Below, piece after piece: positions 43,517 to 54,108 of a stretch of DNA of 64,000 bases. The translations under genes and the position numbers were made by a program. The DNA lies in assembly GCA_003220535.1 (NCBI GenBank), contig QHSU01000068.1, positions 1 to 64,000 of the forward strand, written 5' to 3'. Each line of letters opens with the position of its first letter. Positions within the stretch are counted from its first letter, which is position 1. Source of the stretch: Candidatus Rokuibacteriota bacterium (lineage in GTDB: Bacteria > Methylomirabilota > Methylomirabilia > Rokubacteriales > CSP1-6). The notes beneath the pieces were generated by a model. The model was not told the origin of the DNA. It saw only the letters and a list, made by a program, of their open reading frames with translations, and ran no database searches.

Positions 43517-43960
43517 ATGAATATCGCGAACATCCTGGCACGGAAGGGATCGATGGCCGTGACGGTGCGCCCCGAGCAGTCGATCCGGGAGGCGCTCGCG
43601 CTGCTGGACCACCATAACATCGGGGCGCTGATCGCCGTCGAGGGCGGTCTCCCGGTGGGCATCCTCTCCGAGCGAGACATCGTGCGCGAGGCCGCACACA
43701 ACGAAGGCTTCCTGATGCGGACGGTCGGCGACCTCATGACACGCGACGTCATCACGGGCCAGCCACACGACGATCTCCCCTCGGTAGCCCACACGATGAC
43801 CGAGCGGCGGATCCGTCACCTGCCGGTCGTGGACAAGGGCCAGCTGGTCGGGATCGTGTCGATCGGCGACATCGTGAAAGCCCAGCGAGATCACTACCAG
43901 GGCGAGGTCGATACACTGCAGACGCAGCTCCTCGCGGACGAGGGCGGGCAGGCGCGTTGA
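43517..43960 (+). CDS. CBS-domain-pair protein
   Basis: A 147-residue protein with AAGGAGG six bases before ATG 43517. Two CBS motifs are clear: VTVRPEQSIREALALLDHHNIGALIAVEGGLPVGILSERDIVREAA and DVITGQPHDDLPSVAHTMTERRIRHLPVVDKGQLVGIVSIGDIVKAQ. CBS pairs bind adenosine nucleotides and usually regulate a partner. Its stop overlaps the TTG start of the FprA-type reductase, so coupling is probable and that reductase may be the partner (inference). Confidence 0.9.
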   Translation: MNIANILARKGSMAVTVRPEQSIREALALLDHHNIGALIAVEGGLPVGILSERDIVREAAHNEGFLMRTVGDLMTRDVITGQPHDDLPSVAHTMTERRIRHLPVVDKGQLVGIVSIGDIVKAQRDHYQGEVDTLQTQLLADEGGQAR

Positions 43961-45360
43961 CCCAGACGACGGGGACGCCGGCGCGGCCCTTGCGCGTCGC
44001 GGTCATCGGCGCGGGGCCCACCGGGTTCTACGCCACCGACCACCTGCTCCGGAACCCTCAAGTGGTCGTCGAGGTCGACATGTTCGATCGACTGCCGACC
44101 CCGTACGGGTTGGTGCGCCTGGGCGTTGCGCCAGACCATCAGAAGATCAAGTTCGTCACCACCACCTTCGACAAGGTCGCTGCGAATCCCCGCTTCCGCT
44201 TCTACGGCGGCGTCGAGTTCGACAAAGACGTGACGCTCGCCGACCTGAGAGCGCACTACCACCAGATCGTGTACTGCACCGGCGCCCAGACCGACCGCCG
44301 GATGGGAATTCCCGGCGAGGACCTGAGCGGCAGCCATCCGGCGACGGAGTTCGTCGCCTGGTACAACGGCCATCCCGACTACCAGCACTGCGCGTTCGAT
44401 CTCACGCAAGAGCGCGTGGCGGTCGTCGGCGTCGGCAACGTCGCGGTCGACGTCGTCCGGATCCTGTGCCGGACACCGGAGGAGCTGGCGACCACCGACA
44501 TCGCCGACTACGCGCTGGAAGCGCTGCGCAAGAGCCGCGTGAAGGAAGTCTACTTGCTCGGACGGCGCGGGCCCGCCCAGGCCGCGTTCACCAATCCCGA
44601 GGTCAGGGAGCTGGGCGAGCTCGCCGACGCCGACGTCGTCGCGTTGCCCGAAGAGGTCGAGCTGGATCCGCTGAGCCGTGCCGCGGTCGAGCGCAGCCAG
44701 GACCGGGCGACGCTGAAGAAGGTCGAGATCCTCAAGGAATACGCTCGGCGCCAGCCTACCGGCAAATCGCGCCGACTTGTGTTGAGGTTCCTGGTGTCAC
44801 CGGTCGAGCTGATCGGCGACGACGCGGGACGCGTCACTGCGATGCGTCTGGTCCGTAACGAGCTCTACGCCACGGCGACGGGCGCGCTGCAGCCGCGCGC
44901 GACCGACCGTTTCGAGGAGCTGACGGTCGGGCTCGTGTTTCGCTCGGTCGGCTACCGGGGCGTCCCGTTGCCGGGCGTGCCGTTCAACGAGAGCTGGGGC
45001 GTCATACTGAACGACAAGGGACGCGTGCTCGATCCCGACACCAGGCAACCGGTCGTCGGTGAGTACACCGCCGGATGGATCAAGCGCGGTCCCACGGGCG
45101 TCATCGGCACGAACAAGCCGGACGCCGCCGAGACCGTGGAGTGCATGTTCGAAGACCTCGCCCGGGGCGCGGTGCTCGAGCCAGCCCAGCCGGCGGCGGC
45201 CGCCGCCGAGGCGCTCGTCCGCCAGCGGCAGCCGAACTACGTCTCCTATGCCGACTGGCTCAAGCTCAACGCGATCGAGGTCGCGCGTGGGCGCACTGAG
45301 GGACGCCCGCGAGTCAAGCTCACGCGGGTCGAGGAGATGCTGGCGGCGCTCGGCCGCTGA
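43957..45360 (+). CDS. Ferredoxin-NADP reductase, FprA/adrenodoxin-reductase type
   Basis: A 467-residue two-dinucleotide-domain flavoprotein. FAD binding is by VAVIGAGPTGFYATDHLL near residue 14, NADP binding by VAVVGVGNVAVDVVRIL near residue 150. The substrate region TPYGLVRLGVAPDHQKIKFVTTTFD and the C-terminal GWIKRGPTGVIGTNKPDAAETV are diagnostic of the adrenodoxin-reductase family. It exchanges electrons between NADPH and ferredoxin. The start is TTG 43957 inside TTGA, overlapping the CBS stop. Confidence 0.93.
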   Translation: MTQTTGTPARPLRVAVIGAGPTGFYATDHLLRNPQVVVEVDMFDRLPTPYGLVRLGVAPDHQKIKFVTTTFDKVAANPRFRFYGGVEFDKDVTLADLRAHYHQIVYCTGAQTDRRMGIPGEDLSGSHPATEFVAWYNGHPDYQHCAFDLTQERVAVVGVGNVAVDVVRILCRTPEELATTDIADYALEALRKSRVKEVYLLGRRGPAQAAFTNPEVRELGELADADVVALPEEVELDPLSRAAVERSQDRATLKKVEILKEYARRQPTGKSRRLVLRFLVSPVELIGDDAGRVTAMRLVRNELYATATGALQPRATDRFEELTVGLVFRSVGYRGVPLPGVPFNESWGVILNDKGRVLDPDTRQPVVGEYTAGWIKRGPTGVIGTNKPDAAETVECMFEDLARGAVLEPAQPAAAAAEALVRQRQPNYVSYADWLKLNAIEVARGRTEGRPRVKLTRVEEMLAALGR

Positions 45361-45375
45361 GCACTCCACGGTTGG

Positions 45376-45543
45376 CGGCGGCGGGCCAGGCGGGGGTGGG
45401 CGGCCGGGGAGCCTCCCCTCCGCGACCCGGTAGCCACTACCCGCTTCGATCATTCCTCGGAATGTGTCTTCGGGACAGTCCTGACTACACGGGTCGCGGA
45501 GGGGAGGCTCCCCGGCCGCCCGCCCCCGCCTGGCCCGCCGCCG
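45376..45543. repeat. Giant inverted repeat A: 54-bp arms around a 60-nt conserved loop
   Basis: Arms 45376-45429 and 45490-45543 are reverse complements with one mismatch (53 of 54; G-U pairing in RNA). The loop 45430-45489 shares 47 of 60 positions with the loop of element B without gaps. It contains TAGCCACT near its start, GTCTTCGGGACAG and CCTGACTACA at its end. The 14 pairs next to the loop (CCTCCGCGACCCG side) are also the same in B. The element fills the convergent gap between the FprA-type reductase and an FAD oxidase. It could act as a bidirectional terminator or be a mobile or structured RNA element. Confidence 0.9.
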
Positions 45544-45589
45544 GGACCGGTGGGCGTTCAGCGGGTCGCCCTTCGGAACGGCGGAGAGG

Positions 45590-46780
45590 TCAGCGGGAGA
45601 TCGTGAGGCGGTCCAGGCCGTAGTTGTCGGTGTCCTGCCATGGTTGGCCTTCCGCGAAGCGGGTGGACCGGAAGGGCGTGAGGTCGACGGTGCTCGGCTT
45701 GCCGTCGACGATCCACTCGGCGAGGCCGCAGCCGATGGCCGGGCTGGTCTTGAACGAGGTCCCGGAGTCGCCGAGCATGCAGTAGAGCCCGCTGATCGAC
45801 GGAATCTGATCGATGATCGGCCGGCCGTCGGCGCTCATCATGATCATGCCCGCCCAGCCGCCGCGCATCGTCGCCTCGCCGAACGCCGGCAGCCGCGCGG
45901 CCAGCGCTTTGCGACAGAGCGCGACGAAATCCGGGTCGACGCCCTCGTCGAAGGCGTCCGGATCCGCGTGCCCCGTGCCGAGCTCGACGCCGATCAGCGT
46001 CGCCGCGCCGCCTTCGGGGCGAAACCACGAGTGATGGATCGCGTCGATGACCACGCAATGCCGGGACGTGAAGCCGGCCGGCCAGCGGAAGATCGTGATC
46101 TGGATGCGGTGGGGTACCAGCCCGAAATCGAGGCCGAGCGGCCCCAGCAGGGGCGCGGCCCAGGCGCCGGGCACGAGCACCACCACCGGGGCCTCGACGC
46201 GTCCGCGCGCGGTCTCGACGCCGACGACGCGATCGTGCTCGGTCACGATCCGCGTGACCTCCGAGCCCGTCTCGATCGTCGCGCCGAGGCGCTGCGCCGC
46301 CTCGGCGAAGGCGAACGTCGTCGCGTTCGGATCGGCGAATCCCGACTCGGGCTCCCACGCGGCGCCGCCGACGTCGTCGGCGCGACATCCGGGCAGGAGG
46401 TCTCTCAATCGATCCGGGGTGACCGCTTGCGTCGTGATGCCGAGGCGCTGCTGGCGGGCGACGTTGCGGGCGAGCGCTGCCTCGTAGCCCGGCGGGACGA
46501 TCTGGATGAAGCCGATCGGCTCGAAGCCGCAGTCGCCGCCGACGACATTCCGGAAGTCGCGGAAGACCTTGAGGCTTTCGAACGCGAGCCTGGATTCCGC
46601 TTCATTTGTATAGTGCATGCGCACCAGCGACCCAGACTTTCCAGTAGCGCCGGCGCCCAGGTGGCGCCGCTCGAGCAGCAGGACGCTCCTAACTCCGCGA
46701 GTCGCCAGGTGAAAAGCGGTACTCGTCCCGTTGGCTCCGCCGCCGATCACGATCACATCCGCTCGTCGAATGTGCGCCAT
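45590..46780 (-). CDS. FAD-dependent oxidoreductase of the DAO/glycine oxidase family
   Basis: A 396-residue flavoenzyme with GGAGGAAG before ATG 46780. The dinucleotide motif DVIVIGGGANGTSTAFHLATRG is at the N-terminus, then GKSGSLVRMHYTNEAESRLA. The C-terminal FAD contacts are GWAGMIMMSADGRPIIDQIPSISGLYCMLGDSGTSFKTSPAIG. It oxidises a secondary or primary amine such as glycine, sarcosine or a D-amino acid. The substrate is unclear. It is divergent from the GAF-PilB gene. Confidence 0.9.
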   Translation of the reverse strand: MAHIRRADVIVIGGGANGTSTAFHLATRGVRSVLLLERRHLGAGATGKSGSLVRMHYTNEAESRLAFESLKVFRDFRNVVGGDCGFEPIGFIQIVPPGYEAALARNVARQQRLGITTQAVTPDRLRDLLPGCRADDVGGAAWEPESGFADPNATTFAFAEAAQRLGATIETGSEVTRIVTEHDRVVGVETARGRVEAPVVVLVPGAWAAPLLGPLGLDFGLVPHRIQITIFRWPAGFTSRHCVVIDAIHHSWFRPEGGAATLIGVELGTGHADPDAFDEGVDPDFVALCRKALAARLPAFGEATMRGGWAGMIMMSADGRPIIDQIPSISGLYCMLGDSGTSFKTSPAIGCGLAEWIVDGKPSTVDLTPFRSTRFAEGQPWQDTDNYGLDRLTISR

Positions 46781-46839
46781 GCCTTCTTCCTCCGGTATGG
46801 GCTGCTAAGCTACCATGGTTTGTGAGCACCGGAGGAGAC

Positions 46840-49146
46840 GTGGCCCAGCAAGAGTCCGTCCAGATCCTTCAGCAGCGGCTCGCCTACGAGCAGAAGCTCG
46901 TCCAGGTCGTCGACCGCGTCCACGCGGCCAAGAGCATCGACAGCATCTTCATCGAGCTGCAGGGGGAGATCCTGGGGCTCCTCGATGCCGACCGGATGAC
47001 GATCTACGCCGTTGACCAGGCCAAGCAGGAGCTCTACTCGAAGTTCCTGGCCCTCGACACGGTCAAGGAGATCCGGCTGCCGGTCAGCGAGAAGAGCATC
47101 GCCGGCTACGTCGCGGCCTCGGGGCGGGTGGTGAACATTGCCGACGCCTACGACAAGGCCGAGCTGGCGCGGATCTCGCCAACCCTGAGCTTCGACGGCT
47201 CGTGGGACAAGAAGACGGGGTTCCGGACCCAGCAGATCCTGACCATGCCGATCCTGCACGAAGGACGGCCGATCGGCGTCGTGCAGCTCTTGAACAAGAA
47301 GCGCGGCACCCGGTTCACAAAAGAGGACGAGACGGGCGTCTCCCGGATCGCCAAGACGCTCGGGATCGCGTTCAACAACCAGACGCAGCTCAGCCAGAGT
47401 CAGGAGCTGATCCAGAGCGCCCGACCGAAGACCAAGTTCGACTACCTCCTGGCGCAGCATCGCATCACGCCCCAGGAGCTGAGCTCGGCGGTTGCCGAGG
47501 CGCGCCGTCGCCAGACCGATGTCGAGTCGATCCTGATCGAGCAATACAAGGTGCCGAAGGGCGAGCTGGGCGTTTCGCTGAGCCAGTTCTACGGGTGCCC
47601 GTTCGTCGAGTTCGACGAAAAGATCCTCCCGCCCCCGGATCTGATGAAGGACCTGCGGCTCGAGTACCTGCGGCGAAACTTCTGGCTGCCGCTCCGACGT
47701 GAGGACGCTGCGGTCGTGGTCCTCATCGACAATCCTCAAGATCTGCAGCGAGTGGACAACGTCAGCCAGGCGCTGAAGAACCGGAAGATCAGGTGGGCGG
47801 TCGGGCTGCGCAAGGACATCCTGCAATTCCTCAGTCAGGTGAGCGGCGAGCTCGCGGGCAGGGACTCGATCGGCACCATCCTGGGCGACCTGAGGGCCGA
47901 GGACGTCGCCGACACGCTGGACTTGAGCTCCGGCGAGGTCGACGAGAACGATAGCGCGGTCATCCGGTTGGCGAACCAGATCATCGTGGACGCGTACAAG
48001 GCGCGCGCCTCCGACATCCACATCGAGCCCTACGGCAGCCAGAAGGACACGGTGATCCGTTACCGCATCGACGGCGGCTGTGCGGAGTATCAGAAGATCC
48101 CCGGCGCCTATCGGCGCGCCATCGTCGCGCGGATCAAGATCATGGCCCAGCTCGACATCGCCGAGCGCCGGAAGCCCCAGGACGGCAAATTCAAGTTCAA
48201 GGTGGGCGACCGCGAGATCGAGCTGCGCGTCGCCACGATCCCGACCGCGAACCAGAACGAAGACGTGGTCATGCGGGTCCTCTCCTCGAGCGAGCTCATC
48301 GCCCTCGACAAGCTTGACATGACCCCGCGCAACGTCCGCGAGCTCAAGAGGGTCGCCGAGAAGCCGTACGGACTCATTCTCTGCGTGGGGCCGACCGGCT
48401 CGGGTAAGACGACGACGCTGCATTCGCTGCTGGGCCACATCAACAAGCCCGAGCGCAAGATCTGGACCGCCGAGGACCCGGTCGAGATCACGCAGTACGG
48501 CTTGCGGCAGGTGCAGGTGATGCCGAAGATCGGCTTCGACTTCGCCGCCGCCATGCGGGCCTTCCTGCGCGCCGACCCCGACGTGATCATGGTCGGCGAG
48601 ATGCGCGACGAAGAGACGGCGTCGACGGGCATCGAGGCCTCGTTGACTGGTCACCTGGTGTTCAGCACCCTCCACACGAACAGCGCGGTGGAGACCGTCG
48701 TCCGGCTGCTCGACATGGGGCTCGACCCGTTCAACTTCGCCGACGCGCTGCTCGGCATCCTCGGGCAGCGGCTCGTCAAGCGTATCTGCCCGGACTGCCG
48801 GGCAGAGTACCATCCCGAGCGCGCCGAGTACGACGAGCTCGCTCAGGCGTTCGGCGAGGAGGCGTTCGCGACGCTCAACCAGAAGTACGACGAGTCGTTC
48901 GTCCTCTACCACGGCAAGGGCTGCGTCTCCTGCAACAAGACCGGCTATCGCGGCCGCCTGGGCATCCACGAGCTTCTCCTCGCGACCGACGAGATGAAGC
49001 GACTCATCCAGACCCGGGCGCGCGTGGCCGAGATGCTGGAGCGGGCAAAAGCCGAGGGTATGACCACGCTCGTCCAGGACGGGGTACTCAAGACGCTCAG
49101 CGGTCAGACCGACTTTCGCCAGGTCAAAGCCGTCGCGATTAAGTAG
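46840..49146 (+). CDS. GspE/PilB-type secretion ATPase with N-terminal GAF domain
   Basis: About 768 residues from GTG 46840, chosen for GGAGG just before it; GTG 46822 is an in-frame alternative. A GAF domain covers about residues 15-180 (IELQGEILGLLDADRMTIYAVD to IAFNNQTQL). An MshEN/GSPII_E N-domain follows (210-330, TPQELSSAVAEARRRQTDVESILIEQ), then the ATPase. Walker A is GPTGSGKTTTLHSLL, Walker B DPDVIMVGEMRDEET, and the zinc Cys pairs are CPDC and CVSC. These hexamers drive type IV pilus or type II secretion assembly. No pilus genes are nearby, and a GAF domain in place of extra N-domains suggests ligand control. Confidence 0.9.
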   Translation: MAQQESVQILQQRLAYEQKLVQVVDRVHAAKSIDSIFIELQGEILGLLDADRMTIYAVDQAKQELYSKFLALDTVKEIRLPVSEKSIAGYVAASGRVVNIADAYDKAELARISPTLSFDGSWDKKTGFRTQQILTMPILHEGRPIGVVQLLNKKRGTRFTKEDETGVSRIAKTLGIAFNNQTQLSQSQELIQSARPKTKFDYLLAQHRITPQELSSAVAEARRRQTDVESILIEQYKVPKGELGVSLSQFYGCPFVEFDEKILPPPDLMKDLRLEYLRRNFWLPLRREDAAVVVLIDNPQDLQRVDNVSQALKNRKIRWAVGLRKDILQFLSQVSGELAGRDSIGTILGDLRAEDVADTLDLSSGEVDENDSAVIRLANQIIVDAYKARASDIHIEPYGSQKDTVIRYRIDGGCAEYQKIPGAYRRAIVARIKIMAQLDIAERRKPQDGKFKFKVGDREIELRVATIPTANQNEDVVMRVLSSSELIALDKLDMTPRNVRELKRVAEKPYGLILCVGPTGSGKTTTLHSLLGHINKPERKIWTAEDPVEITQYGLRQVQVMPKIGFDFAAAMRAFLRADPDVIMVGEMRDEETASTGIEASLTGHLVFSTLHTNSAVETVVRLLDMGLDPFNFADALLGILGQRLVKRICPDCRAEYHPERAEYDELAQAFGEEAFATLNQKYDESFVLYHGKGCVSCNKTGYRGRLGIHELLLATDEMKRLIQTRARVAEMLERAKAEGMTTLVQDGVLKTLSGQTDFRQVKAVAIK

Positions 49147-49290
49147 TCCGGGCGGGAGGGCGGGGTGGTGCCCTCCGCGACCCGCTAGCCACTGCCCTCC
49201 ACGATTATTCTTTGGCGCGGGTCTTCGGGACAGGCCTGACTACACGGGTCGCGGAGGGCACCACCCCGCCCTCCCGCCCGCCCGGACTAC
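49143..49290. repeat. Giant inverted repeat B: 42/46-nt arms around a 60-nt loop related to A
   Basis: Arms 49143-49184 and 49245-49290 are perfectly complementary apart from a four-base CGCC insertion in the right arm. The loop 49185-49244 is 60 bases, the same length as in A. The outer stem sequence differs completely from A, yet its two arms match each other. The left arm begins inside the stop codon of the GAF-PilB gene. It lies between convergent genes; 49291-49385 holds nothing else recognisable. Confidence 0.9.
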
Positions 49291-51947: not shown

Positions 51948-52113
51948 CGGCCGGGCGGGGACGGGAAGCCGGGGGGGCGTGGGGGGCACGCGATCGGCAC
52001 CGTCACCCACACGCCCGAATCGCAGCTCTTCGAGCTGCGCACGGGACGCGGGGGTCCCACTACGCCGATCGCGTGCCCCCCACGCCCCCCGGCTTCCCGT
52101 CCCCGCCCGGCCG
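51948..52113. repeat. Giant inverted repeat C: 51/50-nt arms around a 65-nt loop
   Basis: Arms 51948-51998 and 52064-52113 are complementary except for one extra G in a G-run of the left arm. The loop 51999-52063 does not align with A or B overall. It contains an inner hairpin CGCAGCT/AGCTGCG whose tip is TCTTCG-like, as at the conserved GTCTTCGGGAC of A and B. It lies between convergent nikR and dctM, the same setting as A and B. Confidence 0.88.
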
Positions 52114-53613: not shown

Positions 53614-54108
53614 CTAGCCGTCCATGAAGAGGCTCGAGCGCCCCTTTCGCACTTCGCGGAGGTCGATCAGCATCATGACGGTGGTGACGAACAACCCGAC
53701 GGAGACGATCAGGTGCGCAGGCCACATCGGTAGGTCGAGGGTCACGAAGGTCGTCTTGGTCATCAGGACGTGGCGGGCCTGCCGGAAGGTGGCGACGACC
53801 AGCGCCGCGCAGTAGGCAATGGAGACGATCTGGACGGCGTGGTCGATGACGAGCCGCGCGTTGCGGCCCAAGCGCTCGACGAGGAAGGTTACGCGGATGT
53901 TGGCTCCCTGCCGGTAGGCATAGGGCATCGCCAGGAAGACCGCGGCGATCATCAGGTAGTTGGTGGTGAGCTCGTAGGCCGCGAGGATCGGGCGGTTCCA
54001 GAGATAGCGCCCGCCCGCGTCGGCCGTCGTGAGCAGCATCATGCTGAAGGTGGCCAGGGCGGCGACCAGCGTCAGCGCGTGCTCGCAGCGGTCGAGCCAC
54101 CTCCGCAT
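53614..54108 (-). CDS. TRAP transporter small membrane subunit DctQ
   Basis: A 164-residue four-helix DctQ protein starting at ATG 54108. Helices are near residues 11-32, 45-64, 85-107 and 125-148, with the family segments RYLWNRPILAAYELTTNYLM and MPYAYRQGANIRVTFLVERL. It bridges DctM and the binding protein. It lies 14 bases after dctP. Confidence 0.93.
   Translation of the reverse strand: MRRWLDRCEHALTLVAALATFSMMLLTTADAGGRYLWNRPILAAYELTTNYLMIAAVFLAMPYAYRQGANIRVTFLVERLGRNARLVIDHAVQIVSIAYCAALVVATFRQARHVLMTKTTFVTLDLPMWPAHLIVSVGLFVTTVMMLIDLREVRKGRSSLFMDG

Follow-up and report, generated by a model that had tools for sequence, protein, structure and literature searches.

How can two hairpins share a loop, differ in their stems and yet each stay almost fully paired? 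The question is raised by two elements, A and B, in a 64,000-nt stretch of DNA from a Candidatus Rokuibacteriota bacterium (contig QHSU01000068.1, positions 1 to 64,000; hereafter the window), to which an earlier note, made from the letters alone, had drawn attention. Our computational follow-up indicates that A and B are probably two examples of a non-autonomous palindromic repeat that is dispersed in the genome, behaves like the Rickettsia palindromic elements (RPEs) and has its arms rewritten by template switching. Both belong to one family, F1, and are laid out as follows:

45376-45543, forward strand: element A (F1), arms 45376-45429 and 45490-45543, head 45430-45489
49143-49290, forward strand: element B (F1), stem 49149-49184 and 49245-49280, head 49185-49244

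A dispersed family whose arms change together

Element A has arms of 54 nt around a loop of 60 nt and a hairpin score of 51 (match +1, mismatch −2), and B has a 36-bp stem without a mismatch around a loop of 60 nt (score 36); in a control of 216 gene 3′ ends, each given one mononucleotide shuffle, the best hairpin score was at most 11. The two loops are identical at 47 of 60 positions in an ungapped alignment and the 14 pairs adjacent to the loop (CCCTCCGCGACCCG) are the same in both, exactly as the earlier note had counted. Its claim that each stem is nearly perfectly paired without a conserved sequence was likewise borne out; the statement that the outer stems share no sequence is fair for the letters (19 identities in 40 aligned columns of the outer 5′ arms) but not for composition, which is common to both (G-rich). 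To the eye, these 5′ arms are runs of G of a G-quadruplex-like kind and the 3′ arms are C-rich, and this holds on either strand.

The note had also taken A and B for members of a real family with a conserved head, and named beforehand the absence of further copies as the result that would count against this; copies were found, and the claim stands. An F1 element consists of a conserved head of ~60 nt (57–78 nt) with ~14 conserved flanking pairs, atop a stem of 17–55 bp. The F1 covariance model, built from 19 elements, gave 35 match rows in the source genome, which come down to 29 distinct copies once 6 opposite-strand self-hits are removed, and matches in all 9 genomes of the genus; since the covariance searches scored no more than 40–150 candidates per genome, these copy numbers are lower bounds, and the E-values are rough. 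A and B scored 106.9 and 109.7 bits, both being among the sequences that built the model (R1). Of 40 genomes sampled from the taxonomic family, 21 had matches (E 0.001); in a scan of 95 genomes across the phylum (E 1e-5), matches were present in 24 of 57 same-family genomes and in none of the 38 others, although the weakest genomes of the phylum scan (G042 and G047) may match to the stem alone. An exact 20-base motif occurs in two Candidatus Rokuibacteriota records. An assembly artefact was considered and ruled out, because the same junctions carry orthologous copies in other genomes.

At least two more head families, F2 (65-nt head) and F3 (~93-nt head), have the same design as F1, with matches in 7 and 9 of the 9 genus genomes, respectively, and up to 52 match rows per genome for F3. 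We also scanned for hairpins without reference to homology, in 862 kb made up of the window and four contigs picked for holding matches (thus not a random sample), and obtained 25 hairpins of score at least 18; among the 21 of score at least 20 that lie in junctions of at least 60 nt between called genes, 20 have loops of 59–108 nt and one has a loop of 16.

Comparison of orthologous copies indicates how the stems stay paired. The outer arms have 0.965 identity within an element against 0.66 between orthologues (109 orthologue pairs), and the former exceeds the latter in 106 of the 109. Of these pairs, 62 have arms that are at least 0.7 identical; they show 336 two-sided and 139 one-sided changes, where independent arms would give 63.7 and 683.5, in line with the active arm copying that the earlier note had offered among its explanations. 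Nearly all of the two-sided changes (317) lead from one Watson-Crick pair to another, and 220 gap columns occur in both arms. With each site represented by its closest pair alone, 15 of 23 sites remain, with 62 two-sided and 40 one-sided changes (10.8 and 142.4 expected), and over 22 stem pairs in 85 aligned elements the counts are 439 and 7.

The mismatches that do occur on the F1 sense strand (4,570 pairs) are A·C in 77 cases, G·T in 30 and other in 62, an excess opposite to what selection on a sense RNA would leave and perhaps due to strand-specific mutation or repair; F3 has the same lean (22 to 12), whereas in F2 the A·C cases are the fewer (10 to 15). When gaps are allowed in extending the stems, 29 of 90 enter the last sense codon of the gene or go beyond it, so that the 3′ arm there resembles an inverted copy of gene sequence. 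Concerted arms, scarce G-U pairs, the A·C excess and stems that extend into genes together speak for a DNA-level process in which one arm is rewritten from the other.

Gene ends, turnover and copies inside genes

The F1 copies collected across the genus number 115, of which 103 are intergenic and 12 lie inside called open reading frames (ORFs). A same-strand gene is upstream of 92 of the 103, and in 90 of these the stem score is at least 15 and the stop codon is no more than 60 nt away, mostly within 30 nt. At convergent junctions, the stop of the gene on the element's own strand is the nearer one in 45 of 48 cases (median distance 9 against 74 nt); F1 is directional. The rule is weaker in the best 30 loci of each of the other families, with a co-directional upstream gene for 20 of 26 non-ORF copies in F2 and 19 of 27 in F3. 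The stop codon before F1 is TAG in 62 of 90 cases against a background of 29%, a count in which orthologues are not independent; in the source genome alone it is TAG in 13 of 26 (P 0.03). TAG likewise ends pilB in the four genus genomes that have no element there, so the excess may be a target preference.

Occupancy of the sites changes among relatives, as seen in 35 orthologous 3′ ends fetched for eight elements of genome G000 (L249, L253 and L256 were mislocated and excluded). The earlier note had proposed a check for empty sites, and they exist: at the site of A, the hairpin is absent in 7 of 7 fetched genus genomes, and in five the two stops nearly abut. At the A junction in an eighth genus genome, G003, there is an element in reversed orientation; a flip of the head by recombination between the arms was considered and is insufficient alone, because each of the two elements adjoins the stop of its own-strand gene. 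Heads also replace one another: at L049/L247 the stem base is shared, but the head is F1 in G000 and F2 in G003; at L048, G000 has F1 where G003 has F3. The L029 site holds F1 in five species, nothing in G001, a hairpin without a head in G008 (15 bp, by ungapped scan) and an apparent head deletion in G007. The 3′ side of pilB carries a hairpin (score at least 14, loop at least 59 nt) at 15 of 30 loci family-wide, with F1 in five and related or other heads in ten; within the genus, four of the eight assessable genomes have the element after pilB and four lack it, G008 being without an intact gene end. The pilB-like gene of G008 (L348) lacks the usual last codons, and nearby sequence partly matches the 3′ arm of the element.

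Some copies lie in frame within genes, for example in a nitroreductase-family two-domain gene (two stretches matching PF00881; SagB-like by eye) and in a membrane-protein-like gene that matches no Pfam entry; insert-free orthologues are present for both. Among 24 homologues of the nitroreductase-family gene, the linker is 64–74 aa in 17 and 93–124 aa in 7, and among 10 homologues of the membrane-protein-like gene it is 29–40 aa in 5 and 66–77 aa in 5; some long linkers no longer hold a hairpin. The same linker of the membrane-protein-like gene has an F1 head in G001 and G008 and an F2 head in G000. In antisense, too, F1 is found in frame: one such copy extends the C-terminus encoded by a histidine-phosphatase gene, and another lies in a gene that has no match in Pfam.

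Origin of the elements and known repeats

We suppose that the head or the whole element inserts by way of a trans-acting activity that prefers gene 3′ ends, and that replication template switching (quasi-palindrome correction) would then rewrite one arm from the other and could extend the stem outward into host sequence. Such rewriting and extension would account for stems that differ among copies while each is nearly fully paired, and excerpts of PMC8794818 describe template switching as a route by which such stems are made and kept. In the mRNA, the element would form a very stable 3′-terminal hairpin, which could protect or end the transcript. Several points weigh against this reading. No transposase was identified, with PF01797 (Y1/RAYT) matching in 0 of the 9 genus genomes, nor was a target-site duplication, looked for by eye at the A site only. 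Some sites are old (F1 is held at two sites in 7 of 9 genus genomes), some patterns of presence and absence could be losses (L271 resembles a head deletion), and 11 of the 103 intergenic F1 copies break the orientation rule, while a host function, and not an insertion preference, could lie behind the strong bias of orientation and the nearness to stop codons. The stems were picked by pairing and the alignment (A4) was fitted to the structure, which inflates the identity and pair counts; orthologue pairs from one site are not independent; and the longest gapped extensions, those that run beyond ~15 nt into the gene, probably arose by chance.

It is conceivable, and we put it forward tentatively, that only the heads, which belong to unrelated families (F1, F2 and F3), are mobile and land at gene 3′ ends, where host replication later writes the stems. 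Each arm would then be an inverted copy of local sequence, even of the stop and last codons, and stems would be locus-specific and heads interchangeable; this is suggested by the exchange of heads on one stem base at L049/L247, the variants at L029 and the stems that cross stops. A different cause of pairing would be compensatory RNA selection on a structured RNA in mRNA 3′ untranslated regions (a stabiliser, processing or protein-binding element). Fixed orientation, adjacency to stop codons and conservation of the head in one orientation would suit such an RNA, as would the facts that the cores of A and B (90 nt) fold with z from −4.9 to −8.3 whichever strand is taken and that a giant hairpin stands at half of the pilB loci (15/30) across genera. 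We nevertheless consider it unlikely: compensation should pass mostly via G-U, as 78.5% of two-step compensations in rRNA do (excerpts of PMC8794818), and here the 7 one-sided changes stand against 439 two-sided ones and sense-strand mismatches are A·C more often than G·T (77 to 30); many orthologous sites are without a copy, other copies lie within ORFs, and Rfam 15 gave 0 matches above gathering score in the window. That pairing is due mainly to selection on a structured RNA, an option raised by the earlier note, is not supported, G-U being scarce among hundreds of two-sided changes. With one locus per head, Rfam returned 9 sub-threshold matches, 8 of them to microRNA models. A test of which strand folds better chose the antisense in 67 of 106 elements; we keep this as a lead only, since most of the bias is also seen with shuffled heads (for heads only, a mean of −2.55 against −1.73 kcal/mol, paired P 0.012). 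A pairing within the F1 head (CCCG/CGGG), paired in 61.8% of cells, was not adopted.

The note had also raised the idea of bidirectional transcription terminators, here native ones of unusual size. The position at gene 3′ ends fits them, and giant hairpins in the 862 kb are indeed commoner at convergent junctions (9 of 34) than at tandem (11 of 189) or divergent ones (1 of 67), but four or more T within 8 nt past the 3′ arm were found after only 1 of 21 hairpins reading the forward strand and 0 of 21 reading the reverse. In addition, giant hairpins are few for such a role (21 in 290 junctions), the head's orientation tracks one gene only, and occupancy varies by species; with a directional element of this kind, we hold the terminator explanation to be quite improbable. 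More doubtful still are repeats like the repetitive extragenic palindromes (REPs) and their mosaic clusters (BIMEs, bacterial interspersed mosaic elements) moved by a RAYT (Y1) transposase. REPs are hairpins of 20–40 bp that carry a GTAG tag and are associated with a Y1 transposase, and they are also found within genes (excerpts of PMC3733652); F1 is likewise palindromic and mostly extragenic, and GTAG/CTAC stands at the head boundary in part of the 19 aligned copies. However, stems of 17–55 bp and heads of 57–78 nt far exceed a REP, and PF01797 is unmatched in all nine genus genomes, with the control matched in 5 of 14, so a RAYT-moved repeat is already contradicted for the present genus.

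The statement that no described family has this design was too strong, because RPEs and the REP and MITE (miniature inverted-repeat transposable element) repeats are, by description, close in kind. MITEs (ERIC, CIR, NEMIS and others) are small non-autonomous repeats with inverted arms and with filled and empty sites, and their terminal repeats are common to the copies and match a parent insertion sequence. F1 is similar in its size, non-autonomy, inverted arms and empty and filled sites, but its outer arms are copy-specific, and neither a parent insertion sequence nor, by eye at the A site, a target duplication was found. According to excerpts of PMC10969869 and PMC3733652, RPEs comprise several families of ~150-bp palindromic repeats, dispersed and in many cases in frame in ORFs. 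F1 to F3 are likewise several dispersed palindromic families, about 100–150 nt in length, with in-frame ORF insertions and insert-free orthologues; unlike RPEs, most F1 copies have a fixed orientation and come directly after a stop codon, with just 12 of 115 inside ORFs, their GC-rich stems diverge in concert, and the phylum is different. By its behaviour F1 appears to work like RPEs, and we do not file it as a member. Palindromes whose arms are homogenised by copying are described for template switching (excerpts of PMC8794818), and palindromes inside coding genes for the mitochondria of Nematomorpha (excerpts of PMC6649704); a conserved head dispersed over many loci, as in F1, is not described in these excerpts. 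Palindromic repeats of such kind in Rokubacteria were not found in searches of an open-access library, judged by titles and the starts of abstracts.

If the RPE-like reading with template switching is correct, the family would be a natural record of template switching, in which more than 100 palindromes have had both arms rewritten together in different species, and the long-standing question of what keeps long stems paired, RNA selection or DNA copying, would become directly measurable. In-frame palindromes of the RPE-like kind would then be known from a second lineage of bacteria, and three or more head families would share one architecture and one landing zone, the gene end.

Neighbouring genes and further heads

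Genes were called with a hexamer gene finder trained on the window. Those around A and B, and one F2 element, are:

43957-45360, forward strand: pyridine-nucleotide/FAD oxidoreductase-like gene (PF07992); A follows its stop codon
45590-46780, reverse strand: FAD-dependent oxidoreductase (DAO) gene (PF01266), convergent to A
46822-49146, forward strand: GspE/PilB-type ATPase gene (GAF, MshEN and T2SSE); B follows its stop codon
49386-51803, reverse strand: TonB-dependent receptor-like gene (PF07715), convergent to B
51948-52113, forward strand: F2 element with a 65-nt head and a long stem, with a bulge between its outer and inner parts

The sense strand of A is that of the upstream FAD gene, and under gapped extension its stem reaches the TGA stop at 45358-45360. 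The palindrome of B continues past a small bulge, where it includes the TAG codon that ends the pilB-like gene (49144-49146) and GGACTAC at 49284-49290. The F2 element lies upstream of the TonB receptor gene, at a distance of 144 nt, and scores 118.2 bits at 51984-52088 with model R2, which includes this sequence.

In the best 60 loci of F2 and F3, the arms are 26–61 bp in 52 and shorter in 8; the F3 head carries GGCTGGGCTCCATC and GGGAACGGGTCC (L127, L129, L144, L162 and L251). F1-like variant heads stand after pilB in other genera (L346, L351, L352, L353, L355 and L357); they start with CGACCACGCT(A/G)GC and end near AGAAG..ACGGGTC, and the motif pattern misses them. The 862-kb scan also gave a minor extra kind, with the head GAGTGGGGTT(C)TCGAA or a near variant. 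Finally, there are giant hairpins with a loop of 15–16 nt (GAGTGGGGTTCTCGAA and GAGTGGGGTTCCGAA) on contig C64 of G000, at 53709-53814 and 157215-157305, the second inside a called ORF.

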